Shown here: positions 47,960 through 64,000 of the stretch, one piece after another
Position numbering within the stretch: position 1 is the stretch's first letter
Layout: every line of letters starts with the position of its first letter
Assembly (NCBI RefSeq): GCF_003967355.1
Contig: NZ_BIFH01000039.1
Coordinates: 62,001 to 126,000, forward strand
Origin: Embleya hyalina
GTDB lineage: Bacteria > Actinomycetota > Actinomycetes > Streptomycetales > Streptomycetaceae
Length of the DNA stretch: 64,000 nt
Direction: 5' to 3'
Notes under the pieces: model-generated
The model's input: only the letters and a program-made list of their open reading frames with translations
What the model was told of the DNA's origin: nothing
The model's database searches: none
Program-made: the position numbers and the translations under genes

Positions 47960-49045
47960 GTGCGTACCGCCGCCGTGGTCGGCACCGGACTGATCGGCAC
48001 ATCCGTCGCGCTCGCGCTGACCTCGCGTGGGGTCACGGTGTATCTGCGCGATCACGACAGGACCGCGGTGCAGACGGCGGCGGCGATGGGCGCGGGTCTC
48101 GACGCGGTGCCGGCCGAGCCGGTGGACCTCGCGGTGCTCGCCGTGCCGCCGGGGCGGATCGCGGAAACCCTGCGGCAGGTACAGGAGTCGCGGCTCGCGC
48201 TGAGCTACACCGACGTGGCGAGCGTGAAGGAGCAGCCGCTGGCCGAGATCGCCGCGCTGGGCTGCGACCTCGGGCGCTACATCGGCGGGCATCCGCTCGC
48301 CGGGCGGGAGCGTTCCGGGCCGCTGGCGGCGCGCGGCGACCTGTTCGAGGGTCGGCCGTGGGTGCTCACGCCCTCGCGGGAGACCGACACCGAGACGCTC
48401 AACCGGGCGCTGGAGATGGTGTCGCTGTGTCGTGCCGTGCCGGTGGTGATGAAGCCGCGCGACCACGACCACGCGGTGGCGCTGGTGTCGCACGCGCCGC
48501 ACCTGGTGTCCGCGCTGATGGCCGCGCGGCTCGAACACGCGCAGGACACCGACACCCGGCTCGCGGGGCAGGGGGTGCGGGACGTGACCCGGATCGCGGG
48601 CTCCGACCCTCGGCTGTGGATCGACATCCTGGGCGCCAACGCCGACGCGGTGGCCGACGTGCTGGCGGGCCTCGCGGGCGATCTGGACGCCGTGGTGGGC
48701 GCGTTGCGCTCGCTGGCGGCCGACGACGCGGCCAAGCGCGAGGTGGGCACGCGCGGCATCGAGGCGCTGCTGCGGCGCGGCAACGCCGGCCACGCGCGGA
48801 TCCCGGGCAAGCACGGCGAACCGGCCGCCGTCTACGAGGCGATCCCGGTGGTCGTCCCCGACCGCCCGGGCGAGCTGGCCCGCCTGTTCGCCGACGTCGG
48901 CCGCGCCGAGGTCAACATCGAGGACATCCGCATCGACCACGCCCAGGGCCGCCCGGCCGGCCTGGTCGAACTCCAGGTCGACCCCCAACGAGCCGACCCC
49001 CTCACACTCGCCCTACGCAACAGCGGCTGGACCGTACAACGCTGA
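47960..49045 (+). CDS. tyrA: Prephenate dehydrogenase with ACT domain
   Basis: 361 residues. The NAD-binding loop is VVGTGLIGTSVALALTSRGV, followed by SYTDVASVKEQPLAEIA and GGHPLAGRERSGPLAARGDL (catalytic His region) and a helical prephenate-binding half with VVMKPRDHDHAVALVSHAPH. Residues ~285-361 are an ACT domain (VPDRPGELARLFADVGRAEV, NIEDIRIDH), which in this family binds tyrosine for feedback inhibition. It oxidatively decarboxylates prephenate to 4-hydroxyphenylpyruvate. The start is a GTG with TTGGAG upstream. Divergent from cmk. Confidence 0.96.
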   Translation: MRTAAVVGTGLIGTSVALALTSRGVTVYLRDHDRTAVQTAAAMGAGLDAVPAEPVDLAVLAVPPGRIAETLRQVQESRLALSYTDVASVKEQPLAEIAALGCDLGRYIGGHPLAGRERSGPLAARGDLFEGRPWVLTPSRETDTETLNRALEMVSLCRAVPVVMKPRDHDHAVALVSHAPHLVSALMAARLEHAQDTDTRLAGQGVRDVTRIAGSDPRLWIDILGANADAVADVLAGLAGDLDAVVGALRSLAADDAAKREVGTRGIEALLRRGNAGHARIPGKHGEPAAVYEAIPVVVPDRPGELARLFADVGRAEVNIEDIRIDHAQGRPAGLVELQVDPQRADPLTLALRNSGWTVQR

Positions 49046-49059
49046 CCCACCCGGGAACA

Positions 49060-49645
49060 CCACCGACGGCACACGGCTGCTCCCGACCAAGCACAAACAA
49101 GCCAGCCCACAGACCGAACCGAAACCCCTCGAACCACAAACCCCAGCTCATCCGACACCCAAGACCCAGCAAACCGCAGACCGAACCGAAAAGGCCCGAA
49201 CCACAAAACCCAGCCCGTCCAGCGCCCGAAAACCAGCAGACCGCAGGCCGGTCGGGAACGCCCGGACCACGAAACCAGCCTGTCCGGCGCTTGAGGACCC
49301 GCAGGCCGCAGGCCGGCCAGGAACGCCGCCGCTCCGGCACCGAACACAGCCAAGCCGACACCCAGCTCGTCCGGCACCTGAGGACCCGCAGGCCGCAAGC
49401 CGAACCAGGAACGCCCGGACCACAAAACCCAGCCCGTCCGGCGCTTGAGGACCAGCAGGCCGCAGGCCGGCCGGGAACGCTACCGCTCCGGCGTCACGCA
49501 CAAGGCAAGCCACCACCCAGCCCGTCCGGCGCATGAGGACCCGCAGGCCGGCCGGGAACGCTGCCGCTCCGGCGTCGCGCACAAGGCAAGCCACCACCCA
49601 GCCCGTCCGGCGCATGAGGACCCGCAGGCCGGCCGGGAACACCTC
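49060..49645. repeat. Degenerate intergenic repeat array (CCCAGCCCGTCCGGCGC type)
   Basis: About seven to eight imperfect copies of a 66-86-base unit fill the gap between tyrA and the sigma-factor gene. The core CAGCCCGTCCGGCGC(T/A)TGAGGACC occurs clearly at about 49428, 49517 and 49598, with older, mutated copies at about 49143, 49209, 49275 and 49361. A second word, GCAGGCCGGCCGGGAACGC, follows each. The last two copies are nearly identical over 80 bases, so the array has grown recently at its right end. The core resembles the intergenic repeat seen after many genes in Streptomyces. Long minus-strand frames across it are not coding. No other gene lies here. Confidence 0.85.
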
Positions 49646-49656
49646 CCCCTTCGCGG

Positions 49657-50808
49657 TCAGCGGTGGGCGTTGAGGCGCGCGGCTCGGCGGGTCAGGTGGT
49701 CGCGTTCGGCGAGGTTGCCCGCCTTGTGGGCCGCCTCGGCGTACAGCCGTGCCGCCGTCGTCGGGTCGCCGTCGCGTTCGTGGAGGTACGCCGCCACCGC
49801 CGTGTGGCGCGGCAGCGAGTCGTCCAGCGTCGCGAGTGCCGCCAATCCGGCGCGCGGTCCGTCGGCCTCGCCCACGGCCACCGCGCGGTTGAGCCGGACC
49901 ACGGGGTTGTCGGTCAGGCGCACCAGCTCGTCGTACCACTCGACGATCTGCACCCAGTCGGTCTCCTCGGCGGTCGGCGCGTCGGCGTGCAGCGCCGCGA
50001 TGGCGGCCTGGGCCTGGTACTCGCCCAGCCGATCGCGGGCCAGCGCCGCCTGCAGGATCACCACGCCCTCGGCGATCATGCGGGTGTCCCACCGGTTCCG
50101 GTCCTGCTCGGCGAGCGGCACCAGGCCGCCGTCGGGCCCGGTCCGGGCGGCGCGCCGGGCGTGGTGGAGCAGCATCAGCGCGAGCAGGCCCGCGACCTCC
50201 GGGTGGTCGATCGCGGCGGCGAGCTGCCGGGTGAGCCGGATGGCCTCGGCGGCCAGGTCCACGTCGCCGGAGTAGCCCTCGTTGAAGACCAGGTACAACA
50301 CGCGCAGCACGGTGGCCACGTCGCCGGGCCGGTCGAACCGCACGCCGGAAACCGTGCGCTTGGCCCGGCTGATGCGCTGCGCCATGGTCGCCTCGGGCAC
50401 CAGGTACGCCCGGGCGATCTGTCGCGTGGTCAGCCCGCCGACGGCGCGCAGCGTGAGCGCGACCGCCGAGGACGGGGTCAACGACGGGTGGGCGCACAGG
50501 AAGTAGAGCCGGAGTGTGTCGTCCGCCCCGGGCGTGGGCCCGGGCGCCGGCTCCTCGTCGACGATGTCCTCACGCCGGCGCCGGGCCGCGTCCGCGCGGG
50601 TCGCGTCGAGGAACTTGCGCCAGGCCGCGGTGACCAGCCAGCCCTTCGGGTCCCGCGGCGGGTCGGTCGGCCAGACGCGGATCGCCTCGACCAGCGCGTC
50701 CTGTACCGCGTCCTCGGCCGCCGCGAAGTCGGCTCCGCGGCGGACGAGGATCCCGAGCACGCTCGGTGTGAGGCCGCGGAGCTGTGCCTCGTTCATGCCG
50801 GTGGTCAC
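49657..50808 (-). CDS. ECF-type RNA polymerase sigma factor, ECF42 group
   Basis: 383 residues. Region 2 has DFAAAEDAVQDALVEAIRVW followed by PRDPKGWLVTAAWRKFLDAT. Region 4 is LTLRAVGGLTTRQIARAYLV then EATMAQRISRAKRTV. A long C-terminal extension (~190-383) contains LYLVFNEGYSG and a TPR-like helical part ending near RDHLTRRAARLNA. This architecture defines ECF42 sigma factors, which lack an anti-sigma factor and are paired with a DGPF protein; the DGPF gene is directly upstream with a 1-base gap. The extension is thought to control activity. The GTG start has GGAG upstream; an ATG 4 codons later is possible. Confidence 0.92.
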   Translation of the reverse strand: MTTGMNEAQLRGLTPSVLGILVRRGADFAAAEDAVQDALVEAIRVWPTDPPRDPKGWLVTAAWRKFLDATRADAARRRREDIVDEEPAPGPTPGADDTLRLYFLCAHPSLTPSSAVALTLRAVGGLTTRQIARAYLVPEATMAQRISRAKRTVSGVRFDRPGDVATVLRVLYLVFNEGYSGDVDLAAEAIRLTRQLAAAIDHPEVAGLLALMLLHHARRAARTGPDGGLVPLAEQDRNRWDTRMIAEGVVILQAALARDRLGEYQAQAAIAALHADAPTAEETDWVQIVEWYDELVRLTDNPVVRLNRAVAVGEADGPRAGLAALATLDDSLPRHTAVAAYLHERDGDPTTAARLYAEAAHKAGNLAERDHLTRRAARLNAHR

Positions 50809-50809
50809 G

Positions 50810-51220
50810 TCACTCCGCGATGGTGTGCTGCGAGGCGCTCATGAACGGGCGCACCTCCAGCCACTCGTGGATCGGCTTGCCGCCCGCGCCGGGCGCGGCC
50901 GACAGTTCCCCGGCCAGCTCGACGGCGCGCTCGTAGGTGTCGACGTCGATGATCATCCAGCCGGCGATCAGGTCCTTGGTCTCGGCGAACGGGCCGTCGG
51001 TGACCGGCGGGCGCCCCTCGCCGTCGTAGCGGACCCAGGCCCCCTGCGGGGTCAGCGCCTGACTGTCGACGAACTCGCCGGTCTCCTTCAGCCGGGCCGC
51101 GAAGTCGTTCATGTATCCCAGGTGCGCGGAGATCTCCTCCGGCGTCCAGCGGTCCATCGGCACGTCGTTGACCGAGGCCGGAGCGCCGCGGTAGTGCTTG
51201 AGCAGCAGGTACTTGGCCAT
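50810..51220 (-). CDS. DGPF/YCII-family partner of the ECF42 sigma factor
   Basis: 136 residues. It has the name-giving VTDGPFAETKDLIAGWMIID motif (residues ~75-94) and a YCII-type ferredoxin-like fold, opening AKYLLLKHYRGAPASVNDVP and closing KPIHEWLEVRPFM. DGPF proteins are almost always encoded beside ECF42 sigma factors and are assumed to be their sensors, regulators or main targets; the chemistry is unknown. The ATG at 51220 has GAGGAGAACC upstream. Its stop is one base from the sigma-factor start, so the two are co-translated. Confidence 0.92.
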   Translation of the reverse strand: MAKYLLLKHYRGAPASVNDVPMDRWTPEEISAHLGYMNDFAARLKETGEFVDSQALTPQGAWVRYDGEGRPPVTDGPFAETKDLIAGWMIIDVDTYERAVELAGELSAAPGAGGKPIHEWLEVRPFMSASQHTIAE

Positions 51221-51777
51221 GATGGTTCTCCTCGGTACTGGTGCGCCCATTGTGGTCGCGCTCACCCCGGGGACGAAGCCGCCCACGCGATCTCGACATC
51301 GCCGGCCGAATCTTTTTCCGAACCACCTCGCACAAGCCGAGCAGGCCCCTCCCACCACACCCGCCCCCGTACCGCCGGCCGGTCCCCACACCGATCCGCA
51401 CCGGGACGAACACCCGCATCCACCCACCCGGCAACCTCACGAACCGCCCCCGAAACCACCCGCCCCGTACGCCGCCGACGCGCCCCGACCACACCCAAAT
51501 CACACCGCAGCCGCACGCCACCCCACAGGTCCACGGCCCACGCCCGGCCCCACCACCCGGCCCGCCGACGCGCCGCAGCCCACCCCCGCCTCACCACACC
51601 GCGGCAACCCACCGCGCCACGACCAACCACCTCGACCCATCGCCGCGCCGCAACCCGCCACCCCGCCGGGCCACGGCCACACCGTCGCCGCCCACCACCC
51701 GGCTCACCGCGCGGCGGCCGTCCCCGATCCCACCGCCGCGCTGCGGGCCACCAGCCCACCCCCGGCGCCGGGAGGCT
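51221..51777. other. C-rich gene-free stretch
   Basis: About 555 bases between the DGPF gene and the last gene of the GAP1 operon. The plus strand is strongly biased to C and A (runs such as CCACCACACCCGCCCC). Frames across it are open but encode only proline/histidine/threonine-rich low-complexity sequence on one strand and Arg/Gly/Trp-rich sequence on the other, with no family motif or ribosome-binding site. I see no gene, repeat array or strong hairpin. Confidence 0.6.
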
Positions 51778-53913
51778 TCAGCGGGGTGGGTTTTGTTCGG
51801 ACCAGCGGCGGCCGAGTTCGGTGCGGAAGTCTTCGCCCCATTGGCTGTTGAGGAGGATTTCCTCGATCAGCGGGTTCGGGGAGCGGTCCCGGCGGTCGGA
51901 GAGCACGCAGATCGCGATCTGGCGCAGCACCCCCTTCGTGTCGGTCTTGGGGGCCAGCACCACCACGAGGAGTTGTTCGAGCAGCTTGCGGGTACGTTTC
52001 TCGCCCGCGCCGGCCGCCTCCAGACGGTCCCCGAACTGTTCGGCGTCCAGCACCGTTTCGCGCATCGCCCGCATGTCGTCCGGGTTCCACGCCTCGGGGG
52101 CGAGCTGGCGGCGGCGCTGTTCCAGGCGCGTGGTCAACCGGTCCGCGATCACCGGCAACACCCGCAGGTCGGCCAACCGCAGCGCGACCGCGAGGGTGAC
52201 GATGTTGTCGATCGCGGCGACCTCGGTCTTGGCCGCGCCGCCGCCGAGCGCCCGTTCGCGCAGCGTCGGTTTGTCCGGAAGGCGCTTGACCGCGCGCCGT
52301 ATCTTGTTCACCTCGGTGTCCGGGATGCCGTATTCGGCCCACACGCTCCACGGCGCGTTCCCGGCGCTGGTCGGCGGCGCGCCCGGGGTCGGCGGGTTCT
52401 CGGGTCCGCCGACCGCGCCCGGCTCGGCGTCCGGGTCCGCGTCGAGGTCGTCGTCGGTGTGCGGCAGCGCGGGTATCGGCAGTTCGCCGCGCTCCTCCTC
52501 GAAGCCCGGCCACGGCCCGGTGAAGGCGTCCTCGATCTCCTCGAACACCGCGCCGTCGTCCGCGTACCAGGTCACATCCGCGGGCTCCGCGCTCGCGGCG
52601 GCCGGAGCCGAGTACGGAAGCGACGGCCGGGGCGGCGACACGGTCGACACGGCCCGGGGGGCCGAGGACCCCGCCGGGTAGGGGAACGCCGGTTCCTCCT
52701 CGGCCGTGGACACCGTCACCACCCGGGGCTCCCGCTCGACCCGTGCCGCCGCACCACCCCGCCGGACCCGCTCCGCCGCGGCCACCAGCGCCTTCTCGGT
52801 CGCCAGTCCCCGATCCCGAACCGGCGCGGGCGCGGCCGTGGGCGCGGCGGCGACGGCGCGCGACGGCGCGGGCACCGACACCGGCGCGGGCTCGAACAGG
52901 GGCGCACGCGCGGGCGCGGGCGGCATCGGCGCGACCGCCGGCGCACCCGACCCGGCCCCCGAGCCCCGCCGACCCAACCGGGCGCAGATCTCCCGCGACC
53001 GCTCCTCCGCCCGCTCGTGCGGCAGCGGCCGCAGGTCGCGCATGCCCTCCAGGAGGCGGTGGATCCCCGGCCAGTCGGTGTCGGTGTAGCGGCTCACCAG
53101 CAGCGCCGCCGCGTGCGCGTGCACGTCCGAGCCGGCCTTGGGCTCCTCCCCCACGACCAACCGGTAGCGGCCGGCCCACGGCTGCGCGTCGCGCGGCCGG
53201 CGCGGCAGCACCACGAACCTCGGCTTGCCCGAGTGGTCCAGCGTCTCGAAGGTGGAGAACGTGAAGGACACCGGGACCAGCCACAGGAGCAGGTCGGACA
53301 ACCCCCACAACATCGGCACCGGATCGATCCCCACGTCCGCCTGCCGGAACGAGAAGAACCGGCCCGGATGCCGCAGCACGGCGGCGACCGCGACCTCGAG
53401 CAGATACGCCTGCTCGCGCGCGCGGCCGCGCAGCCGCTCGGCGTGCCCGTCCAGCGCGGCGGCCACGAAGTCCGGGGCCAGCGGCGCGAGTCCGTAGCCG
53501 CGCGGGATGTCCTCCAGGGCGGACTCCGCCGCCCACACGGCCTCCTGGGTGAGTACGAGCGCGGCATGCGGGCCCAGGTCGCGGCCGGGGTCGAGCAACA
53601 CGCGCGCGTTGTTCCCGTCGACCACGTACTCGCGCCGGACCACCGCCGCGCCACGACCGGTGTGCACCAGCGCGACGCTGGTCACCGGCGCCCCGCGGTC
53701 CTCCGCGTCGACCGCCACATGCTCGCGCAACTCGTCGTGCCAGCCAAGCAGTTCGTCCCGGGATACGGAGGAGGCGATGGGCCCCAGGCCGCGCCCGCCG
53801 AGCAGGCTGTCGTCCTGGCGCCGGTAGACGATCTGGCGGTACCCGCCCGCCTCGGCCGCGGTCGGCGGCTGGTTCCCTCCCGGCTGCGCCGTGCGTGCCG
53901 TGCGTGCCGTCAT
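51778..53913 (-). CDS. GAP1-type protein (GTPase-associated), copy with helical C-domain
   Basis: 711 residues from the ATG at 53913. The N-terminal domain (~25-330) opens with QIVYRRQDDSLLGGRGLGPI and continues with PVSFTFSTFETLDHSGKPRF, shared with the two genes upstream; this is what I recognise as the GTPase-associated protein 1 N-domain. A disordered Ala/Pro linker (~330-545) follows. The C-domain (~550-711) is helical, with DNIVTLAVALRLADLRVLPV, TDTKGVLRQIAICVLSDRRD and LIEEILLNSQWGEDFRTELG. The role is unknown; family members are encoded beside GTPases and may be their regulators or effectors. Last gene of the operon, 2 bases after the preceding stop. Confidence 0.72.
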   Translation of the reverse strand: MTARTARTAQPGGNQPPTAAEAGGYRQIVYRRQDDSLLGGRGLGPIASSVSRDELLGWHDELREHVAVDAEDRGAPVTSVALVHTGRGAAVVRREYVVDGNNARVLLDPGRDLGPHAALVLTQEAVWAAESALEDIPRGYGLAPLAPDFVAAALDGHAERLRGRAREQAYLLEVAVAAVLRHPGRFFSFRQADVGIDPVPMLWGLSDLLLWLVPVSFTFSTFETLDHSGKPRFVVLPRRPRDAQPWAGRYRLVVGEEPKAGSDVHAHAAALLVSRYTDTDWPGIHRLLEGMRDLRPLPHERAEERSREICARLGRRGSGAGSGAPAVAPMPPAPARAPLFEPAPVSVPAPSRAVAAAPTAAPAPVRDRGLATEKALVAAAERVRRGGAAARVEREPRVVTVSTAEEEPAFPYPAGSSAPRAVSTVSPPRPSLPYSAPAAASAEPADVTWYADDGAVFEEIEDAFTGPWPGFEEERGELPIPALPHTDDDLDADPDAEPGAVGGPENPPTPGAPPTSAGNAPWSVWAEYGIPDTEVNKIRRAVKRLPDKPTLRERALGGGAAKTEVAAIDNIVTLAVALRLADLRVLPVIADRLTTRLEQRRRQLAPEAWNPDDMRAMRETVLDAEQFGDRLEAAGAGEKRTRKLLEQLLVVVLAPKTDTKGVLRQIAICVLSDRRDRSPNPLIEEILLNSQWGEDFRTELGRRWSEQNPPR

Positions 53914-53915
53914 GG

Positions 53916-56027
53916 CTACGGTCCCGTCCTGTGCGGCATGGTCTGGAAGCTCTCCACGGTCAGTCGCCCCATCTCGAGCAGAAACGGCTCGCGATAGCGG
54001 GAGGAACACAGCACGTCGACGAGCACGTTCTGATAATCCGCCCACACCCGCAAGGACGTCCGAAGGGCCCAGACCGTGCCCGCGACGTCGACGGCCAGCG
54101 TGGACAGCACGTCGGCGCCGAATCTGGGCCGCTTGACGTCGGTCACGGTGAGCCGGGCCAGCGTCTCCACCAGCCGACACAGCGTCTCCCTCGGGGCGCC
54201 GCAGCTGTCGAAGGTGTTGATGTCCTCGTGCAGCCGGCCGAGCACCGTCGCGTAGGTCTGCCTGGTGTGCCGTTCCGGCCGGCCGCCGTCGCCGTAGGCC
54301 GGATGCAGGAGCCGATCCAGCCGGTACACCACGGGGACCAGCAGCGGCGGCCGGGCGAGCAGCAGCGCGACCGCGAGCGAGGCGGGGTCGACCTGGATGA
54401 GGACGTCGCGGAACTCGTTCGTCTCGTGCCCGTTGCTCCGGGTCAGCAGCCCGTCGGCCACCTCCAGCGCGGTGTAGCCGTTGCGGGACGCGCCCAGGCG
54501 CTCCCACTCCCCCCGGTCCCACGTGCCGCGCGCGAGTCGGCCCGTCGGGCCGTTCGGGGGCAACACCGGACGGCTGCCCGAGCCGGACTCGGGACGGGGG
54601 GCCGTGCCCGGCGGCGGGACGAGCCGATCCGGGCGGGGCGGGACCGGCGCGTCGCCGCCCACCGTCGGGCGATACGCCGGCATCGGTCCGGCCCGGTTCG
54701 CCTCGCCGCCCGCCCGCCACGCGTCGGCCGGCCCGGACCGCCCGAACTCCGGCGGCGCGGAACCCGACTGTCCGGGCCCGGGCGACGACGGGCCCGGTCG
54801 CGCGTACCCCGGCGCGGCGCCCCGGCCGTACCGATCCCGCTCGGTATACCCACCGGGCTCGTCCGCGGCGTCCTGGTCGTCGTCCTCACTCCCGTTGATC
54901 CAGGTCTCCGTGTAGCCGTTCTCCCAACGCTCGGCGTCGGCCTGCGGCTCGCGCGCGCCGCTGCCCGCCGCCGGGCCGGGCGACGCCCCGGGCGGTACGG
55001 GCGGCGCCGGCGACGTCTGCGGGGCCCGCGGCGGCTCCGGCGTCCGGGGCTCCCGCGGCGCGACGGCGACCGCCGGTGTCAGCCGGGTCGCGTCCGATTC
55101 GAGCGCCAGCACCAGGTCGGCGACCTCCCGATACGACGCCCCGTCGGTGCCGATCGCCGTCTCGATCCGGGCCAGCAGCGCGTCCACCTCGGCCCACGGG
55201 CGCGTGCAGTACAGCTGTACCAGCAGCCCGGCGGCGTCGCGGAACACGTCCTGCCCCGGCTGCGGTTCGGCGCGCGGGTCGATCCGCAGCCGGTTGGCCG
55301 GCTCCGGTGTGTTCGGCCAGCGCGGGACCAGGACGAAGCGCGGCTTCAGCGGCGCGTCGCTGGTCTCGTAGGTGGAGAAGGTCCACATCCCGGGCGCGAT
55401 CGGCTGCGCCAGGTCGAACACGCCCCACAGCAGCGGCACCATGTCCGCGCCGACGTCGCTCTGATGCAGGGTGAAGGTGCGGTGATGGTCGCGCAGCACG
55501 GCCGCGAGCACCACCTCTAGGAGTTCCGGCCGGGCCCGGGCCCGCTCGCGCAGTTGCCCGCGGATGGCCGGGTCGAACGCCTCCGGGCGGATCGTGGTGC
55601 CGCGCAGCGGTACGTTCTCGGGCACCTCCGCGAGCGGGGTCCTGGACCCCGTGAGCCCGCCGCCGCGCTCCTCGTGCAGCCACGCGGTGGCCAGCATCGT
55701 GTGGGCCCCGACGCTGAGTTCGGGGTCCACCAGGACGTGCGCGTCGGTTCCCGGTCGATTGCCGGCGTGGACCGCGGCCTCGCGCAGCACCAGCGCGTGC
55801 CGGTTCTCCAGACGTACCCGGCAAAAGCTCCAGGCGGGGGTCTCCGGCAGCGAGCGGTCCATCGAGACGTGCTGCTCCAAGCCGCCGTGCCAGTCCCGGA
55901 GTTCGTTCAGACCCAGCGACGTGGCGATCGGGCCCATCCCGCGACCGCCCAGGAGGTGGTCGTAGCTCCAGCGATAGACGATCTCGTCCAGTCGATCCTC
56001 TGTGCCGCCCACCCCGTCCGATGCCAT
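53916..56027 (-). CDS. GAP1-type protein (GTPase-associated), second copy
   Basis: 703 residues. Residues ~12-300 repeat the shared N-domain: EIVYRWSYDHLLGGRGMGPI, TSLGLNELRDWHGGLEQHV and PGMWTFSTYETSDAPLKPRF. The linker (~320-520) is Pro/Gly/Arg-rich. The C-domain (~530-703) is helical and differs from that of the next gene, with NEFRDVLIQVDPASLAVALL, ARPPLLVPVVYRLDRLLHPA, LGRLHEDINTFDSCGAPRET and VLVDVLCSSRYREPFLLEMG. The ATG at 56027 comes one base after the stop of the GTPase gene. Proposed to act with the GTPase; evidence is context only. Confidence 0.72.
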   Translation of the reverse strand: MASDGVGGTEDRLDEIVYRWSYDHLLGGRGMGPIATSLGLNELRDWHGGLEQHVSMDRSLPETPAWSFCRVRLENRHALVLREAAVHAGNRPGTDAHVLVDPELSVGAHTMLATAWLHEERGGGLTGSRTPLAEVPENVPLRGTTIRPEAFDPAIRGQLRERARARPELLEVVLAAVLRDHHRTFTLHQSDVGADMVPLLWGVFDLAQPIAPGMWTFSTYETSDAPLKPRFVLVPRWPNTPEPANRLRIDPRAEPQPGQDVFRDAAGLLVQLYCTRPWAEVDALLARIETAIGTDGASYREVADLVLALESDATRLTPAVAVAPREPRTPEPPRAPQTSPAPPVPPGASPGPAAGSGAREPQADAERWENGYTETWINGSEDDDQDAADEPGGYTERDRYGRGAAPGYARPGPSSPGPGQSGSAPPEFGRSGPADAWRAGGEANRAGPMPAYRPTVGGDAPVPPRPDRLVPPPGTAPRPESGSGSRPVLPPNGPTGRLARGTWDRGEWERLGASRNGYTALEVADGLLTRSNGHETNEFRDVLIQVDPASLAVALLLARPPLLVPVVYRLDRLLHPAYGDGGRPERHTRQTYATVLGRLHEDINTFDSCGAPRETLCRLVETLARLTVTDVKRPRFGADVLSTLAVDVAGTVWALRTSLRVWADYQNVLVDVLCSSRYREPFLLEMGRLTVESFQTMPHRTGP

Positions 56028-56028
56028 C

Positions 56029-58209
56029 TCACACCCCCACCCGCTCGATGTCGGCCTGATCGAGCATGCCGCACATCGCGAGGATGGACACCACCGGTTC
56101 GAGAACCCGGCGCGGCCGGATGCCGCCGGGGAAGTGCCCGTCCCGCTCGCGCGCGCCGGTCGCCGAGACGAAGTGCATGGTGCAGCGCCGGAATTCCTCG
56201 AACGGGCTGAGCCACGCGCCGGCGTCGTGCGCGTACAGGAACGAGTACACGTCGCGGCTCTCCGCGTCCGTGCGGGCCGGGTCGACCACCCCGGGTCGGG
56301 GCGGCTGCGAGCCCAACCAGGCGTCCACGGGCGGCTCGAAGCGGATCAGGTCGGACTTGGTGACCGCGACGGCGACCGGTTGGTCGAGCAGGGCGGCCGT
56401 ACGCGGCAACCGGTCCATCACCGCGGCGAAGGTGCGGTCGCCCCGGCGCAGGCCCGCGGTGTCCTCGCCGTCCCGGGTCAGCCGGCGCAACTCCGGCAGG
56501 TCGACCGCGACCACCGGGTCCACCACGAACACGAACGCGTCCGCGGCGGCCAGGAATTGCATCTCCCGGCCACCCCGGGCCAGGTCCTCGCCGCTGACGT
56601 CGAAGAAGGCGATCGGCCGGGTCCGCCCGCCCGTGCGCAGCAGCAGCGCGTCGGCGAACTGTACGAGGTTGCCCTGGTGGTTGACCGTGGTCCCGAGCAT
56701 CTGTCCGCGCTGCAACAGGTCGACCCGGTCCCGCAGGTATTCCTGGTGGTGGCCGGCGTCCACCGGCACGTGCGTCACCCCGTACCGGCGCAGCCCGCCG
56801 GCGTCGATCTCGGCGATCATCGCGGCCAGCAGGTGGGTCTTGCCGGAGAGGCCGTCGCCGATCAGCCCGACCACCAGCGGCGGTTCGTGGATCATGTAGT
56901 TGGTCGGCAGGAAGTGCTCGCGCTCCTCGTCCCCCGTGGGGTTGGGGCAGCGCATGAAGGTGGTGATCATGCGGTCGTGCCGCTTGACCGGGTCGGTGAC
57001 CGTGCTCAGGTCGACCCGCTCGTAGCGCAGCCGCGCGTCGCGCTCGTAGAGGTCGTTCTCGTTCCAGCGGACCAGGTCCAGGCAGAAGGGGCAGCGCACC
57101 ACGGGTCGATTCGCGTCGATGGGATCGCCCGTCGGGGCGCCGGCGGACGGGGTGACGACGGTGATCGTCTCGCTCGCCCCGCGCGTGGGCTCGCGGGTGT
57201 CGCGCGTTTCGGTCCGGCCGGCGGTCCCGGGCGGTGCGCCGACCGGCCCGGGTGCCTGGCCCACCGGCGGTTCCTCGCGCGGTCGGGTGGTCCGGGCCTC
57301 CTGACGGGTGCCGAGCGCGTCCAGCCGCTGCCGGATCGCGTTCACCCGGTCCGCCTCGGGCAGCGTGTGCACCTCGGTGGGTACGTTGAGCAGCCGGTGG
57401 AAGCCCGACCAGCCGGAGCCCACGTAGTGCCGGACGATCCGCCGGGCCAGTTCGCGGTGCGGGTCGAACGGCTCGCCGCGGCCGGTCAGATCGACCCGGA
57501 CGCGCGGCCCGGGCGGACCGGACGGCGCCCGGGGCAGCGCGATGAAGCGCGGCGCCCCGTTGGGGTCGTCGACCGCGTCGTCGACCTCGAAGGTGGAGAA
57601 CGTCCACGGTCCCGGAAGCAGCGCGGTGAGCAGGTGTTGCAGGCCCCACAGCAGCACGGTGGCGTCCTCGGCGCCGGCCGGCAGCAGGGCCAGCCGGGCC
57701 CGGGGGCGGCGCAGCACGGCGGCGACGAGCACTTCGAGCGGATCGGCCAGTCGGTGGGACTGCTCGTGCAGGTCGCCGGCGGCGACCTCGAAGGCCGCGG
57801 CCAGGCGCTCGTCGGGCAGCGGTTTGAGGCCGTAGCCCGGCGGGACCCGGTCCAGGTCCAGCGCCCCGGGCGCGCGCCGCTCCAGCGAGCCCCACGCGAG
57901 CGCGTCGAACGGCGCGATCGAGTCCCGGGGGCCCACCAGTACGTGGGCGGAGTTGTTCAGCCGCTGGCGGCGCGCGTCGGCGGAGAACTCCCGGCGGATC
58001 AGCGCCACTCCGAGCGGGGTGTCGAGCAGACACACGCTGGACGCCGGGCAGGCGGGGTCGCCGTAGTCCATGGTGACCGCCTCGGCCAGCCCGGTCCGGG
58101 TGTGCCAACCGAACACCTCGTCGCGACCCAGCGAGGTGGCGACCGGAACGATGCCGCGGCGCCCGAGCAGCCCGTCCGGGTCCCAGCGGTACACGATCTG
58201 ATGCAACAT
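56029..58209 (-). CDS. GAP1 N-domain fused to zinc ribbon and P-loop GTPase
   Basis: 726 residues. Residues 1-310 are the same N-domain as in the two following genes (HQIVYRWDPDGLLGRRGIVP; GPWTFSTFEVDDAVDDPNGA). After a linker, ~375-425 has Cys pairs RCPFCLDLVRW and MRCPNPTG, a likely zinc ribbon. The GTPase follows: P-loop GLIGDGLSGKTHLL (448-461), switch/Walker B IAFFDVSGEDLA (Asp537) and base-specificity TKSD (617-620). It fits the double-GTPase/TRAFAC group linked to GAP1 proteins. Fusion of the N-domain to the GTPase supports a direct partnership between the two. It is probably a GTP-driven switch; the signal is unknown. 67 bases after the kinase stop. Confidence 0.8.
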   Translation of the reverse strand: MLHQIVYRWDPDGLLGRRGIVPVATSLGRDEVFGWHTRTGLAEAVTMDYGDPACPASSVCLLDTPLGVALIRREFSADARRQRLNNSAHVLVGPRDSIAPFDALAWGSLERRAPGALDLDRVPPGYGLKPLPDERLAAAFEVAAGDLHEQSHRLADPLEVLVAAVLRRPRARLALLPAGAEDATVLLWGLQHLLTALLPGPWTFSTFEVDDAVDDPNGAPRFIALPRAPSGPPGPRVRVDLTGRGEPFDPHRELARRIVRHYVGSGWSGFHRLLNVPTEVHTLPEADRVNAIRQRLDALGTRQEARTTRPREEPPVGQAPGPVGAPPGTAGRTETRDTREPTRGASETITVVTPSAGAPTGDPIDANRPVVRCPFCLDLVRWNENDLYERDARLRYERVDLSTVTDPVKRHDRMITTFMRCPNPTGDEEREHFLPTNYMIHEPPLVVGLIGDGLSGKTHLLAAMIAEIDAGGLRRYGVTHVPVDAGHHQEYLRDRVDLLQRGQMLGTTVNHQGNLVQFADALLLRTGGRTRPIAFFDVSGEDLARGGREMQFLAAADAFVFVVDPVVAVDLPELRRLTRDGEDTAGLRRGDRTFAAVMDRLPRTAALLDQPVAVAVTKSDLIRFEPPVDAWLGSQPPRPGVVDPARTDAESRDVYSFLYAHDAGAWLSPFEEFRRCTMHFVSATGARERDGHFPGGIRPRRVLEPVVSILAMCGMLDQADIERVGV

Positions 58210-58276
58210 CAGCCGACCTCACCTGCCGTCACGTTCGACTCATCCGATGCGCCCGGTCCGACCCGGCTCGTCGCGT

Positions 58277-59365
58277 TCACCCCATCCGGTCCTTCCCGAA
58301 GAGCCGGAACCGACCGGTCCTCGGCGGCTCACCGGGCCTGCCCGGCGGCTCCGGGGGCCTGGGCGGCAGCACCGGCGGCGGTCGGTCCCCGGTGCCCGCC
58401 CGGTGCGCCGGCTGCGGTTGACCGGGCAGCGGCATGCGCTGCCGTTTGCGTTCCATCGCCGCCTCGTAGCCGCGCCGCCCCTCGGCGAGCGGGTCGTACT
58501 GGGCGTGGCCCGCCACGTACGGGTCCGGTTCGCCGAGTCGGCGCAGCAGTTCGCCGGCGCCCGGCCGACGCACCGCGTCCGCCTCGAACACGCCCTGGAA
58601 CAGGTCGAGCAGCAGGCCCTGGGTCTCCACGCCGACCGGAACGCGGCCCTGACGGATCGGGCGTCCGGTGGTGACGTGGTAGGCGACCTGCGCGGCCGAC
58701 CAGACGTCGTCGTGCGGATCGGCCGGTCCGGGCCCGCGCAGCGGCCCCGGTGCGGCCCACTGCGCGGTGCCCAGGCTGCTGCGCGGTTCGCCGGCGAGCG
58801 CCGCGTGCCCGAAGTCGACCACCTGGAGCCGGCGTTGCTCGCGCTGCCAGCGCACGCTGCTCGGGGTCAGGTCGCCGTGCACGACGCCGGCCGACTCGAG
58901 GTAGCGCACGGTACGGAAGATCGCCCGGCGGAACGCGTCCTGCTCCTCGCTGAGCAGCTTGCCCACCACGTCCTCGGCGGGCGGGCAGGGGCTCGCCTCC
59001 AGGAGCAGGAACGGCTCGACCCCGTCGAAGTCGTGTCCGGCCACCCGGACCAGCTCGCGCGGATACCCGGCGCCGCCGAAGGTGCGGACCAGGCGCAGCA
59101 GCACCCGGATCTCCGTCTCCAGGCTCGCCTCGGCGCCCACCCGGCGCCGCGGGTCCAGCCGCCCGAGCCGCTTCTGCACGAAGACGCTGCCGTCCTCCAC
59201 GTCGCGCACGTCGCGGATCCGGAACGGCTGCCCGGGCGGGGTCGGCCGGTCCGGGCCGAACTCGACCCGACGTTCCACCGAGTAGCCCTCGGGGTCGGTG
59301 TAGCCGAGCTTGCCCTCGGCCGACGACTCGCCCGCCCGCCCCGCGCGCCCGCTCACGGCGCCCAT
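58277..59365 (-). CDS. Ser/Thr protein kinase of the GAP1 operon
   Basis: 362 residues. A compact kinase domain: ATP-binding lysine probably Lys65 in VFVQKRL, catalytic loop VVHGDLTPSSVRW (HGD in place of HRD, Asp165 kept, Thr-Pro for Lys-Pro), intact DFG at 184-186 (VVDFGHAAL), and GTAQWAAPGPLRGP as activation/APE segment. The HGD and LTP changes are common in atypical kinases of bacterial conflict operons and do not by themselves abolish activity. The C-terminal ~60 residues are Pro/Arg-rich and disordered. Overlaps the preceding gene by 13 bases. It may phosphorylate the GTPase, the tubulin-like protein or GAP1 partners. Confidence 0.85.
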   Translation of the reverse strand: MGAVSGRAGRAGESSAEGKLGYTDPEGYSVERRVEFGPDRPTPPGQPFRIRDVRDVEDGSVFVQKRLGRLDPRRRVGAEASLETEIRVLLRLVRTFGGAGYPRELVRVAGHDFDGVEPFLLLEASPCPPAEDVVGKLLSEEQDAFRRAIFRTVRYLESAGVVHGDLTPSSVRWQREQRRLQVVDFGHAALAGEPRSSLGTAQWAAPGPLRGPGPADPHDDVWSAAQVAYHVTTGRPIRQGRVPVGVETQGLLLDLFQGVFEADAVRRPGAGELLRRLGEPDPYVAGHAQYDPLAEGRRGYEAAMERKRQRMPLPGQPQPAHRAGTGDRPPPVLPPRPPEPPGRPGEPPRTGRFRLFGKDRMG

Positions 59366-61932
59366 CCGCCGTCGTACCGGTCGTCACCCGCACCGGGTCG
59401 GTCGGGGCCGCCGGCGCTCTCCTCCCAGATCCGCGCGTCGTCCACCGAGCCGGGCAGCAGCGGCAGCAGGCGCAATACGCCGGCCATCCGTCCGCCGCCG
59501 GTCCACACCAGTTCGTGCTCGATCGGGTGCCCGGTGCGGCGCTCGCGCAGCGCCTCGCGCACGGCGGGGCGCACCCCGCGCGGGGCGAAGCGCACGCTGA
59601 CGGTGTGCGTGGGCGCGTGGTCGAGCAGGATCAACTGGTCGCTCGCGCACAGTTGCAACATCGAGTGCGCCGCGGGCTGTCCGAGCAGTTCGGCGATGCG
59701 ATCCGCGTCGCCGCCGACCGCCTCGCCGACGTGCGGGCGGTCCTGGCCCTGCCGGCCGAACGGCGGCGCGGCCTGCACCCCGTTGTGCGCGAGGTGGTCG
59801 GCGTACGCGCGCAGCACGGGCCGCAGTTCGGGCGCCGCGCCGCGCCGGGACGCCTCCGCCGGGTCGCGCTCCAGGAGCGGCCACAGCGGCTCGAACGCGG
59901 CGTGCAGTGCGTCCACGAGGTCGCCGAGCACCGTGTCGTACAGGCTCGCCCCGGACGCGCCCGGCGGCGGGCCCGACGGCGGCGCGGGACGGCCGGGGGC
60001 CGGGTAGCCGCCGGTGCCGAACGCCTCCGTGCCGGGATACGGCGGCGCGGGACGGCCCGGCGGCGGGTAGCCGCCGGTGCCGAGGTTCCCCCCGCCGGGA
60101 TACGACGGCGCGGGAGGGAAGCCCGGGATCGGGTTGCCGCCGGTGCCGAAGTTCTCCGCGGCCGGATCCGGTCCGGGCGGCTCGCCGGTGAACTGCCGCT
60201 CCAGCGCCGCCGCGTCGTCGGCCAGGAGCGTGGCGCTCTCCTCCAGCAACGCGGCCAGCACGGTGGCCCGGTCCACCGCCTCGCGGCGCGGACCGGCCAG
60301 CGCCCAGTCGTTCCACACCGTGCGCACGAGCAGCGCGTGCAGCCCGTGCAGCGCGCGGGTGGCCGCGCCCAGGCCCAGCACGCGGTCCCAGTGCCGCACC
60401 CGCAACCGCCAGTCCAGGCCGGGCAACACGAGCAGCACGGCCAGGCCGAGCACCAGGGCGAGTGGTCCCACGCCGGTCGGCGGATCCCACGCCCGCCCCG
60501 CGAGCACCCCGCAGATCGCGCCGACCAGGGCCACCAGGCCGGTGACCACGATCATCGGCAACGCCTCGGGCGGCAGCACCGCCCGGCCCTCGCGGTCCGG
60601 ACGCCGGGCGGTGATCAGGATCGATCCGAACAGCGCGAGCAGCACCGCGAGCCCGGCGCCGACCACACCGAAGGCGGGCCACAGGGCGGTGAGGAACGCA
60701 CCGACCACCAGGCCGCCGACGACGCCGACGTGGGCCGGGCCGAGCGGGAACGCGGCCGGGCGCAGGTAGCGGGTCAGGAAGCCGTCCGAGCAGCTCTGGT
60801 CCACCTCGTGGGCCCGGGCGGCGCCCGCCCCGGGGGTGATCCGGTCGGCGAGTTCGCGCAGTCGTTCGGCCAGCCCGCGCAGCCCCTCGGGGCGGTCGAA
60901 GGCGGCGGCGGTACGGGAGTACAGGGCCGCGGCCACCGAGTTCGCGCCGAGCCCGGGCGGCTCCGGGATCACCACGCCGACCTGGTCCAGCCAGGCCCGC
61001 CCGTCCGCGTCGAATCCGGCCGCGCCCCGGCCGACGGTCTGCCGGACCAGGTCCCGGTAGTCGCGCAGCACGGTCGCCGCGTCGGCGATCTCGCCGTCGA
61101 TCGAGCGCCCGCCGCGCCCGGCCGAGCCGTAGAGCGCGACCGGCGCGGCCAGCACGGTCAGCCGCTGCTGGGCCCGCTTGAACCCCTGCTCGGCATGCGC
61201 CCATCGCGCCCCGAGCGCACCGTCCGGACGCACACACTCGCGCACCCCGCCGGTGGTGGTGACCAACCCGGCGCCCTGCTCGTCGGCCAGCGCCGCCAGC
61301 GGCTCCGGCCAGGGTTCGTCGACCCCGCCCTCGGCGCCGGCCAGCCGCTGCACGGCGCGGATCCGGGCCCGCTGTACCGCGTCGTCGCGGATCCGGTGCA
61401 CGAACACGTTCATCCCGGGGGCGGCGATCGAGCGGGGCATCTCGGTCACCCCGGCGAGCACCTGGTCGAACACCTCGGGCTGGCTCAACACGTCGACCAG
61501 CGGCGCCAGCGCGTCCGCGTCGTCGGGCGTGAGCACCACGCCGGGCGCCCGCCCCGGCGCCCACTCGGTGCCCCGGATGTCGCCGACCCACAGCGTGGCC
61601 GCGTCGCTGCCCGCGAGTTGGCCGGGCCGGCGCAACACGATCGAGCCGTCCACGGGCGCGCCGACCGCGACGCACACGACCTTGCTGTACATGCCGGCGA
61701 AGATCCGCTCGTACGCGTGCCGGTGCGCCACCAACTCGTCGACGGAGTCGAGCACGAGCACCCGGTCGGCGTCCACGTTGCGGGTCCCCGCGGGCACCCG
61801 GGTGCGCGCGTAGGCGGTCTGGACGTCGGCGAAGGTCCGGGCCGCCATCACCGTGTCGTACTCGGTGCGCAGATCGACCACGATCACCAGCGGGCGCGGG
61901 ATGCCCGCGCCGGGAACGGCGGTGTCGGTCAC
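59353..61932 (-). CDS. Four-helix membrane protein of the GAP1 operon
   Basis: 859 residues. An N-terminal alpha/beta domain (~1-200) begins RPLVIVVDLRTEYDTVMAAR and includes DRVLVLDSVDELVAHRHAYE. The centre (~405-520) has four membrane segments, among them VGVVGGLVVGAFLTALWPAF and ALPMIVVTGLVALVGAICGV. A linker near 640-700 repeats FGTGGYPxPGRPAPPYPG three to four times. The C-domain (~700-859) has RIAELLGQPAAHSMLQLCAS and HTVSVRFAPRGVRPAVREAL. I do not recognise a catalytic site. It probably anchors the system at the membrane. The start is a GTG overlapping the stop of the tubulin-like gene (GTGA). Confidence 0.75.
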   Translation of the reverse strand: MTDTAVPGAGIPRPLVIVVDLRTEYDTVMAARTFADVQTAYARTRVPAGTRNVDADRVLVLDSVDELVAHRHAYERIFAGMYSKVVCVAVGAPVDGSIVLRRPGQLAGSDAATLWVGDIRGTEWAPGRAPGVVLTPDDADALAPLVDVLSQPEVFDQVLAGVTEMPRSIAAPGMNVFVHRIRDDAVQRARIRAVQRLAGAEGGVDEPWPEPLAALADEQGAGLVTTTGGVRECVRPDGALGARWAHAEQGFKRAQQRLTVLAAPVALYGSAGRGGRSIDGEIADAATVLRDYRDLVRQTVGRGAAGFDADGRAWLDQVGVVIPEPPGLGANSVAAALYSRTAAAFDRPEGLRGLAERLRELADRITPGAGAARAHEVDQSCSDGFLTRYLRPAAFPLGPAHVGVVGGLVVGAFLTALWPAFGVVGAGLAVLLALFGSILITARRPDREGRAVLPPEALPMIVVTGLVALVGAICGVLAGRAWDPPTGVGPLALVLGLAVLLVLPGLDWRLRVRHWDRVLGLGAATRALHGLHALLVRTVWNDWALAGPRREAVDRATVLAALLEESATLLADDAAALERQFTGEPPGPDPAAENFGTGGNPIPGFPPAPSYPGGGNLGTGGYPPPGRPAPPYPGTEAFGTGGYPAPGRPAPPSGPPPGASGASLYDTVLGDLVDALHAAFEPLWPLLERDPAEASRRGAAPELRPVLRAYADHLAHNGVQAAPPFGRQGQDRPHVGEAVGGDADRIAELLGQPAAHSMLQLCASDQLILLDHAPTHTVSVRFAPRGVRPAVREALRERRTGHPIEHELVWTGGGRMAGVLRLLPLLPGSVDDARIWEESAGGPDRPGAGDDRYDGGWAP
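60020..60180 (-). repeat. Pro/Gly repeat in the membrane protein linker
   Basis: Three to four imperfect ~54-60-base copies encode FGTGGxPxPGxPxPxYPG. They lie between the membrane helices and the C-terminal domain. Confidence 0.7.
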
Positions 61933-64000
61933 CAGCCACCCCCGGGCAGTTCGCGCTCGTCGTGGTCCTCGGGCGGGTCGAGCCGTCGGGTGCGGTCCAG
62001 GCCGTCGAGGCGGATCGTGCGATCGTCCGGATCCGGCTCGTCCGGGCCGGGCCGGTCGCGCGGGTCGTACGGATCACGCGCGGCGTGCGGGTCGTGCGCG
62101 TCCCGGGCGCCACGCGCGTCCCGATCCGCGCGCGGCAGCGCCGGCGGATACGGGTCGTAGGGTTCGTCCCGCTCGGTCCGCCCGCGGCGCTCCGAGGCGT
62201 CCCGGTCGTCCCGCCGCGGCGCCGGCTTGTCCAGGCTCGGTCGGGTCACCTCGGGCGGGTCCGCGTCACGCCACGCGTCCCGGCCGCGCGGTTCCGGTAC
62301 GGCCCGCCGCTCCCGGTCCTCCTTCTCGAACACCGGCCCACCGGGCTCCCGAACGGCCCGCCGCTCGCGCTCCCGCTCCCGCAGGTCCTCCCGGTCCTCC
62401 CGGTCCCGGTCCTCCCGCGGCCGACGCGCCTCGCGCCGCTCGCGCTCCCGGTCCTCGCGCACCCGCTCCCGCTCGTCCCGCACCTCGCGCGCCTCGCGTA
62501 CGTCCCGCACCTCGCGCGGATCGCGCTCGCCGCGAAGACCCCGCGCCTCCGGCGCGTCACGCACGTCCCGCGCATCGTGCGCGTCCCGCCCGTCCCGCCG
62601 ATCCCGGAGGCCGCGCCCCTCCCGCACATCCCGCGCGTTCCGCTCGTCCCACGAATCCCGCTCGTCCCGCACCCGCTCGGGCCCGCGCCGCTCCCACTCC
62701 GCACCACGCTCGTCCCGGTCCCGGTCCCGGTCCCGTTCGCGCTCACGTTCCCGAGCCCGCTCGTCCGCCTCCCGGTCCCACACGTCGTCGCGCTCGTCCC
62801 GCCGGCGCTCCCGCTCCCGGCCGCGCTCGTCCACCGCGCGATCCCACCCGCCCCCGCGCCCGTCGTCGTATCCCGCGCCCGGGTAGCCCCCGTCCTCCTC
62901 GTCCCGATACTCCAGCTCGCGCAACGAGTCCCGGTTGGCGCCCTGGTGCGAGAACGACAGGTCGAGCGCGGCGGGCAGGGTGATCTCCCACAGCCGCAGC
63001 AGCTCCTCCGCCCAGCCCCGGCTGCGCTCGGGCAGCCGGTCGCGCAGTTCGTGCAGCGTGCGCACCTGGCGCGGGGCCACCTCGTGGACGAAGTGCCGGT
63101 ACAGCGGCGCCGGTTCGCGCACCCGTGAGCCCAGCCCCTCGGGGTAGGTGAGCATCAACTGCTTGGCGAACTCCCGCCGCACCGACGCGTCGTCGGTCAG
63201 CGTCCACTCCTCGTAGGCGCGCAGCAGGCTGCCCCACGAGGACGCCCGATCGAACGGGCGCAGCGGCAGCTTCATCACGGTGGACCCGTGCGGGAGCCGG
63301 ATGTCGACCACCTCGGGCGAGGACCGGTCCCCGCGCGCCACCTCGACCTGGCCGTTCCACATCGCGCACAACAGCCGGTGCAGGATGTAGGCCCGGTGGC
63401 CCTCGGTGGTGGCCAGCCAGTCGTAGGTGAAGCCGAGCCGCTGCCGCCACTTGAGGAAGTCGACCGGGTCCTGCCGGTCCAGCGAGCGCGACCACTGCGC
63501 GAGCACCTGGCGCACCTCGGGCACCTCGGTCAGGCTCATCGCGCTGCGGAAGAGCACCACCACGATCGACTCCTGCTCGACCGCGCGGAACTCGATCTTG
63601 CGGGACGGCTCGTTGGGGATGTTGAGCATCCGTTCCAGGTACTGCCGCACGTCCGCGTCGTGCGCGGTGCCCGGGTGCGCGATCAGCACCTTGAGTTCGC
63701 CGCTGCCCTCGGGCGAGAAGCCGTTGGGCAACATGCCCGCGAGCTTTTGCACGAACTGTTCCAGGTCCTCCTCGCCCACCGAGGCGCCGCGCTTGGTGGC
63801 GGCGCGGGTGAGCAGGTCGCGCACCGGCGGCAGCAGCGGCTGCGCGTTCAGCTCGCCGGCCTGAACGAACAGGGTCTTGACCTGCTGCTTGATCTGGTCG
63901 CGCACGTAGGTGACCGCGGCCGGGCCGCCCTCGCGCTCCTCGCCCATCTCGTAGGCGCGTTGCCAGATGCCCGTGCCGAGCAGCTTGCCGACGATCTGCG
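61929..64000 (-). CDS. Tubulin-like-domain protein, C-terminal part (runs off the window)
   Basis: The frame is open to base 64000 (…VGKLLGTGIWQRAYEMGEER), so the start and the GTP-binding N-domain lie outside. What is present matches the C-terminal half of large streptomycete Tubulin_2-type proteins: YVRDQIKQQVKTLFVQAGEL, LAGMLPNGFSPEGSGELKVL, KIEFRAVEQESIVVVLFRSA, MSLTEVPEVRQVLAQWSRSL and ILHRLLCAMWNGQVEV. The last ~325 residues (about 62912 to 61929) are a highly charged Arg/Glu/Asp tail with RERERERDRDRDRDERG-like runs, unlike typical members. Such proteins are presumed to bind GTP and polymerise or scaffold. First visible gene of the operon. Confidence 0.75.
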   Translation of the reverse strand, partial: QIVGKLLGTGIWQRAYEMGEEREGGPAAVTYVRDQIKQQVKTLFVQAGELNAQPLLPPVRDLLTRAATKRGASVGEEDLEQFVQKLAGMLPNGFSPEGSGELKVLIAHPGTAHDADVRQYLERMLNIPNEPSRKIEFRAVEQESIVVVLFRSAMSLTEVPEVRQVLAQWSRSLDRQDPVDFLKWRQRLGFTYDWLATTEGHRAYILHRLLCAMWNGQVEVARGDRSSPEVVDIRLPHGSTVMKLPLRPFDRASSWGSLLRAYEEWTLTDDASVRREFAKQLMLTYPEGLGSRVREPAPLYRHFVHEVAPRQVRTLHELRDRLPERSRGWAEELLRLWEITLPAALDLSFSHQGANRDSLRELEYRDEEDGGYPGAGYDDGRGGGWDRAVDERGRERERRRDERDDVWDREADERARERERERDRDRDRDERGAEWERRGPERVRDERDSWDERNARDVREGRGLRDRRDGRDAHDARDVRDAPEARGLRGERDPREVRDVREAREVRDERERVREDRERERREARRPREDRDREDREDLRERERERRAVREPGGPVFEKEDRERRAVPEPRGRDAWRDADPPEVTRPSLDKPAPRRDDRDASERRGRTERDEPYDPYPPALPRADRDARGARDAHDPHAARDPYDPRDRPGPDEPDPDDRTIRLDGLDRTRRLDPPEDHDERELPGGGW
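61935..62912 (-). repeat. Arg/Asp/Glu low-complexity coding region
   Basis: About 325 codons encode short alternations of Arg with Asp or Glu (RDERD, RERE, RDRD). The DNA is built from CGCGCTCC/CGGTCCCG-like words. It is probably a disordered or single-alpha-helix-like tail, and prone to slippage. Confidence 0.75.

Follow-up and report, generated by a model that had tools for sequence, protein, structure and literature searches.

A tubulin-like, DO-GTPase and GAP1-like gene cassette of Embleya hyalina with a putative pseudokinase

Results and Discussion

A seven-gene cassette at the end of the window

We analyzed a stretch of 64,000 nucleotides from Embleya hyalina (assembly GCF_003967355.1, a genome of 12.05 Mb in 78 contigs; contig NZ_BIFH01000039.1, positions 62001-126000), hereafter called the window. 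Open reading frames, together with reading past base 64000, revealed a cassette of seven minus-strand genes (A-G) that extends from window position 51778 to the contig equivalent of 68623. In the order of transcription, it encodes a VWA membrane protein, a Tubulin_2 protein, a transmembrane (TM) protein, a kinase-like protein, a fusion of a GAP1-like domain with a DO-GTPase2 domain, and two further GAP1-like proteins. This kind of cassette has already been described twice, as FtsZl1 operons (Makarova & Koonin 2010, PMC2875224) and as tubulin-theme systems with GAP1-N2 (Kaur 2020, PMC7159879). The cassette presented here is a divergent branch with a putative pseudokinase inside and, in Embleya, also with a GAP1-GTPase fusion and an expansion of the GAP1-like genes. 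As its function we favor, at close to an even chance, a membrane-bound, GTPase-centered switch that would control tubulin-like assembly. The genes are listed below with their lengths in amino acids (aa).

Contig equivalent of window 66113-68623 (L009:16113-18623), outside the window, minus strand: gene A, VWA membrane protein, 836 aa, VWA match at E 6.4e-8
61929-64000 in the window (C-terminal part), start at the equivalent of 66053 (L009:11929-16053), minus strand: gene B, Tubulin_2 protein of the FtsZl1 type, 1374 aa, identified by Pfam
59353-61932, minus strand: gene C, 859 aa, four TM-like segments (crude TM scan, family profile)
58277-59365, minus strand: gene D, kinase-like protein, 362 aa, Pkinase match at E 4.4e-12
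56029-58209, minus strand: gene E, fusion of GAP1-like, CCCH zinc-ribbon-like and DO-GTPase2 parts, 726 aa (Pfam, profiles, motifs)
53916-56027, minus strand: gene F, 703 aa, GAP1-like domain, Pro-rich linker and C-terminal region of 200 aa (profile)
51778-53913, minus strand: gene G, 711 aa, GAP1-like domain, linker and C-terminal region of 240 aa (profile)

A sequence-only reading of the window had proposed a six-gene operon. The operon is real and tightly packed, but it comprises seven genes, with the VWA gene outside the window. The proposed overlaps or gaps of 1-2 bases and the single gap of 67 bases were found again in the measured spacing: genes B and C share 4 bases and genes C and D 13, E starts 67 bases after D, F follows 1 base after E and G 2 bases after F. 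For gene G, the start is most likely at 53913 (711 aa) and not at the first GTG of the frame.

Distribution and gene order

Among 150 genomes of the family, a Pfam profile search detected Tubulin_2 in 17, and among 196 genomes of the class in 12. By profiles built from the seven proteins, 15 of the 17 family loci carry VWA, tubulin-like, TM, kinase-like, GTPase and GAP1-like genes, always arranged in this sequence, and this tabulation supports the co-occurrence that the sequence-only reading had expected. The remaining two are a locus on a contig of merely 11,039 bases (G031) and one with a different system (G006). Beyond the family set, eight class-level loci were obtained, of which four are complete, one, at a contig end, lacks the VWA gene only, and three (L059-L061) differ. 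The cassette is not a chance arrangement, because several genera and also Frankiaceae-type genomes show the identical order.

Fusions, GTPases and VWA genes were counted in a set of 25 loci. The duplicate loci L011, L013 and L016, which lie on the same contigs as L051, L054 and L057, were left out of the counts, and L065, with a kinase gene and GTPases but no tubulin gene, is not among the 25. Alignments A1 and A3 took all rows (30 and 26, respectively). Apparent frameshifts, due to sequencing error or decay, were seen in the TM and kinase genes of L049 and in the tubulin gene of L021. The Pfam family DO-GTPase2 was matched in 26 of the 150 family genomes and 24 of the 196 class genomes, and 18 of those 26 are without a Tubulin_2 match. 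Conversely, a Pfam match to DO-GTPase2 was found in eight of the 17 Tubulin_2 genomes; the other nine gave none, and their GTPases were therefore placed by the profile built in this analysis.

The kinase-like protein

The Ser/Thr kinase of the sequence-only reading was recovered as a Pkinase match of gene D, but the full catalytic set is absent. Gene D itself keeps HGD and DFG and carries Ser in place of the catalytic Asn. In the family alignment (A6, 24 of 25 available stretches, with the frameshifted L049 left out), 6 of 24 rows have the beta3 Lys, 4 the HRD Asp and 10 the DFG Asp; the metal-binding Asn is present in none, and no row combines all four. The family consensus 'HRG' and 'DLE' of the profile align to HRD and DFG of solved kinases, and 16 of the 24 domains match Pkinase at E 0.01 or better. 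Judging from these residues, the gene D family is a pseudokinase family, an assignment that is new here. Three Embleya rows lack the metal-binding Asn alone and have the other three residues, which leaves room for a weak kinase activity in Embleya. Kinase-like and GTPase domains lie in a single frame in 9 of the 25 loci with both (ten were flagged, and the frameshifted L049 was left out), which is likewise new here.

The GTPase fusion

Gene E matches DO-GTPase2 (PF19993) at E 5.9e-9 with 36.4 bits (cut-off 27), in line with the GTPase fusion that had been predicted. It consists of a GAP1-like domain (aa 2-266), the CCCH zinc-ribbon-like motif and the DO-GTPase2 domain (profile aa 371-716). All rows of the GTPase alignment (A2, 25 of 30 stretches, five from loci without the cassette being left out) keep the P-loop G, K and S/T, the Walker B Asp and Gly, the KxD motif and four zinc ligands; the Walker B Glu is found in 23 of the 25 rows and is Asp in two. 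A full-length alignment of gene E with its single-domain relatives (A4) was dropped, as the domains were misaligned. GAP1-like/GTPase fusions occur in three of the 25 loci, all from Embleya. In two Frankiaceae-type loci, a second partial match to the GTPase profile (L057 16301-17551, L058 17410-18735) lies approximately 4.5-5 kb downstream of the cassette GTPase and is possibly a second DO-GTPase.

The tubulin-like protein

Once read beyond 64000, gene B matches Tubulin_2 (PF13809) at E 4.5e-64 with 217.4 bits (cut-off 27), so that the tubulin-like protein suspected from its C-terminal part could be confirmed. The GTP loop AGGTG[ACT]G is present in 26 of 26 rows and differs from the signature GGGTG[ST]G in the first residue of every row; at the sixth residue, T was counted 4 times, A 19 times and C 3 times. 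Polymerizing GTPases of the tubulin/FtsZ superfamily have conserved acidic residues in T7; the putative T7 position, assigned by eye with the FtsZ T7 loop motif as a guide, has D in 12 and A in 12 of the 26 rows. In a PDB sequence search, the tubulin alignment found no convincing relative, with two gamma-tubulin chains at E 1.5. The structure model of the tubulin-like protein appears to cover the two tubulin domains, with a helical insert dividing them, which is also new here. This differs from the FtsZl1 description of Makarova & Koonin 2010 (PMC2875224), in which T6-H7 and the C-terminal tubulin domain could not be placed. If the model is right, this Tubulin_2 branch would represent a complete tubulin, two domains plus an insert, and not an N-domain alone.

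The C-terminal tail of gene B is of low complexity and rich in Arg, Asp and Glu (R 88, D 57 and E 46 of 314 residues). Its identity to E. scabrispora is 60%, versus 96% for the core. It contains the following stretch, which is strongly variable among Embleya species.

62388-62864, minus strand: repeat-rich stretch of gene B with tandem repeats

The membrane proteins

The VWA metal-site motifs are intact in all 25 VWA proteins of the locus set, of which 24 have a C-terminal TM-like segment and 16 an N-terminal signal-like segment; in Pfam, gene A is also weakly like MG2/hemicentin. Gene C, predicted earlier as a membrane protein, has four TM-like segments at aa 402-510 between soluble N and C parts. 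The same crude scan gave one to five such segments in its relatives, and its profile was matched throughout the full cassettes, while no Pfam family was matched above the cut-off. Taken together, the domain, motif and TM results support the membrane anchor, the two GTP-binding folds and the GTPase-centered module that had been suggested.

Divergent GAP1-like proteins

The GAP1-like domains, which in gene F comprise aa 13-277, had been expected to match the Pfam family GAP1-N2. The cut-off of GAP1-N2 or GAP1-M was reached by none of the three copies in the cassette nor, by E-values, by any of 30 copies scanned: below the cut-off, GAP1-M appeared in two (best E 0.008) and GAP1-N2 in one (E 0.076). 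However, a profile-profile comparison (hhalign) of the GAP1-like family with the GAP1-N2+M profile reached a probability of 84.5 at E 6.9e-6, and the same GAP1 profile reached 1.3 when compared with the GTPase profile and 1.0 with the kinase-like one. On these profiles, the membership in GAP1 appears to hold only as a divergent relative. Pfam gave no match to GAP1-C in any of the three proteins E, F and G.

Each of three Embleya loci has three GAP1-like copies, and all other loci with any have one. One alignment (A7) combined 23 of the 30 GAP1-like rows with seven canonical ones. All nine copies from Embleya fall into a single group (99/98) with the three subgroups E, F and G, each at 100/99 or better. 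Since the subgroups are each well supported, the triplication is older than the split of these Embleya species. Among the 25 loci, both the GAP1-like/GTPase fusion and the three GAP1-like copies were seen only in Embleya, which is new here. Gene F diverges fastest within the cassette, with 46% identity to E. scabrispora versus 78-89% for the other six genes, and 91% identity to G004 versus 95-97% for the other cassette genes. The C-terminal regions of F and G show no BLAST similarity to each other (best E 1.3).

A predicted longin/DENN-like fold

In eukaryotes, the longin/DENN fold binds small GTPases, either as an exchange factor (DENND1 with Rab35) or within complexes that activate them (FLCN, GATOR1). 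For the GAP1-like domain, modeling predicts at middling scores a longin followed by a DENN-like fold, which is new here. The longin topology is present in the predicted domain, and 16 of the first 17 VIA rows of the structure comparison are entries of DENN/longin proteins, with the best four spanning both domains; in the GATOR1, SEA and sedlin entries, the chains are longin chains. PDB sequence searches with the GAP1-like and the combined GAP1 alignments found no convincing relative. The terms 'longin' and 'DENN' are absent from the main text of Kaur 2020 (PMC7159879).

With the eukaryotic DENN modules and FLCN/GATOR1, as far as they are covered in PMC3521125, the cassette shares a longin followed by a DENN-like domain (here predicted) and a GTPase partner. 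Unlike those modules, the GAP1-like domain gave no sequence similarity and no d-DENN was identified in it, and the partner is a TRAFAC-type DO-GTPase instead of a Rab or Rag. It is possible, although we lean slightly against it, that bacterial GAP1-N2/GAP1-M proteins are longin-DENN regulators of a TRAFAC-type GTPase, as DENN, FLCN and GATOR1 are for Rab and Rag, and that they here gate a two-domain tubulin relative at the membrane. If this were true, a longin-DENN/GTPase/tubulin circuit known from eukaryotic trafficking would be present in filamentous actinobacteria. A family whose name reflects nothing but its association with GTPases would gain a testable mechanism, namely the setting of the DO-GTPase nucleotide state, and the origin of the eukaryotic DENN/longin regulators of membrane traffic could be considered against a bacterial counterpart.

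Comparison with described systems

In the description of the FtsZl1 operons (PMC2875224), the features shared with the cassette are tubulin-like GTP loops, a VWA gene, a Ser/Thr-kinase-type gene, membrane proteins and a diverged GTPase with a Cys-rich part, which there is sometimes of the DnaJ type. The GAP1-like genes and the lost kinase catalysis are cassette features that we did not encounter in that description. The sequence-only reading had pointed to GAP1/GTPase systems from comparative genomics, and these correspond to Kaur 2020 (PMC7159879), whose tubulin theme, as presented in the main text, has in common with the cassette a DO-GTPase2 with Walker B Glu and zinc ribbon, a tubulin, a membrane VWA protein and a GAP1-type partner. 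In contrast to that theme, GAP1 is divergent here, below the Pfam cut-off and without a GAP1-C match. Proteins with fn3 or HRDC, which also belong to it, have no counterpart by Pfam among the seven cassette proteins. Furthermore, the kinase-like gene sits inside the tubulin system here, whereas there it belongs to a separate, non-overlapping theme; according to the same text, catalytically disrupted kinases are found among VMAP-type effectors, and the kinase of the third GAP1-N2 theme is called active. Because a mostly degraded kinase-like gene sits inside a tubulin system in these cassettes, the published division into tubulin and kinase themes may need revision. The locus L059 (G294) looks like the canonical form of Kaur, with Tubulin_2, GAP1-N2 and GAP1-M above the cut-off and no kinase-like match; below the cut-off, it has a weak VWA match (E 5e-4) and a DO-GTPase2-like one (E 3.9e-5).

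Actinobacterial tubulin systems and VMAP are stated to be mutually exclusive, and tubulin-superfamily effectors to be rare, in the text of Kaur 2020 (PMC7159879). The cassette, in contrast, co-occurs with VMAP-C: VMAP-C was found in 11 of 17 Tubulin_2 genomes versus 99 of 133 others (p 0.39), so a mutual exclusion was not seen, and the genome studied here has two matches to VMAP-C, both outside the contig of the cassette. Compared with the VMAP ternary systems (MoxR, vWA, VMAP) as described there, the cassette is without a MoxR or VMAP gene, and AAA or VMAP gave no Pfam match in the seven proteins. In G006 (L053 1-8011), a Tubulin_2 relative (E 1.4e-49) is fused behind a vWA-like region, recognized by eye and without a Pfam match; it directly follows an AAA gene and a VMAP-C gene and is possibly the tubulin effector of a VMAP ternary system.

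Proposed mechanism and alternatives

The gene set, its order, the conserved motifs and the fusions can be read from the sequences, and the folds are predicted; the direction of the signal, the control of the GTPase, the assembly of the tubulin-like protein and a role in conflict we infer as follows. A signal at the envelope would be read by the VWA protein and passed to the cytoplasm via the TM proteins. The longin/DENN-like modules, one in cis in Embleya and two in trans, would set the nucleotide state of the DO-GTPase, on which the pseudokinase may dock as a scaffold or nucleotide sensor without phosphotransfer. The state of the GTPase would then license or release tubulin-like assembly at the membrane. 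The duplicated, fast-diverging GAP1-like copies would form an input or output arm that tracks a changing partner, which is what one would expect of a conflict system.

A control by phosphorylation, as the sequence-only reading had assumed, would require gene D to be an active Ser/Thr kinase acting on the GTPase or the tubulin. The kinase described for a separate theme in Kaur 2020 (PMC7159879) is a precedent, the Pkinase match is above the cut-off, and the three Embleya rows retain the Lys, the HGD Asp and the DFG Asp. However, the residues are missing from most rows and never occur together, and we rejected gene D as an active kinase; since the full set occurs in 0 of 24 rows and the GTPase motifs are kept in 25 of 25, we consider such a switch very unlikely. 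The nucleotide cycle itself would be unaffected if the longin/DENN likeness were a mere common alpha/beta (PAS-like) arrangement and the GAP1-like proteins were plain adaptors. We tend to doubt this, as nearly all of the leading VIA rows are DENN/longin proteins, the best of them covering the two domains, and since a GTPase is the partner, in Embleya even on the same chain.

Two further proposals concern what the tubulin-like protein does. FtsZl1-type filaments may bend or cut the membrane together with VWA and GTPase partners, as put forward in Makarova & Koonin 2010 (PMC2875224), and both the gene set of those operons and a tubulin fold with GTP loops agree with this. Yet the proposal is itself a prediction only, and the patchy spread (17 of 150 and 12 of 196 genomes) and the expansion of GAP1-like genes in one lineage agree better with a variable role that cells can do without than with housekeeping, which makes membrane remodeling rather unlikely. 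A regulated conflict system (anti-phage or abortive) of the DO-GTPase/GAP1 class of Kaur 2020, with tubulin assembly as the effector, we hold to be a real possibility, if somewhat below an even chance. The GTPase family and the GAP1-like partner are in common, the tubulin relative of G006 stands beside AAA and VMAP-C genes, and rare tubulin-superfamily effectors are mentioned in PMC7159879. Moreover, gene F diverges faster than the rest of the cassette. Against it stand the same genomic place in four of four Embleya loci and the exclusion of VMAP, which was not seen.

Genomic surroundings

The cassette lies directly behind scpA-scpB-rluB in all four Embleya loci, and these genes gave no match in the fetched flanks of the non-Embleya loci; the names of these and of the flank genes below (tyrA, ECF, YCII) are putative. 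A terminator-like hairpin with a stem of 18 pairs lies between rluB and gene A. As the scan found five sites versus 3.3 expected from shuffling, it is the stem length that argues for a terminator. A promoter scan, which covered the sigma-70 type, found none. A plasmid or phage origin was rejected on database searches, in which the single match in the plasmid collection was a chromosome-sized Nonomuraea record and phage matches were zero. Likewise, a known defense system model was rejected, as PADLOC matched gene D alone, and only with its models of kinase components.

Immediately downstream of the cassette, a gene pair named from its translations as ECF sigma factor-like and YCII-type is located at 49657-51427, and the same pair adjoins the cassette in G004 (L050). 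Between tyrA and this pair lies a tandem repeat array (49110-49640) with periods of 65-154, at which the AT skew is strong (0.35 in 49000-49999).
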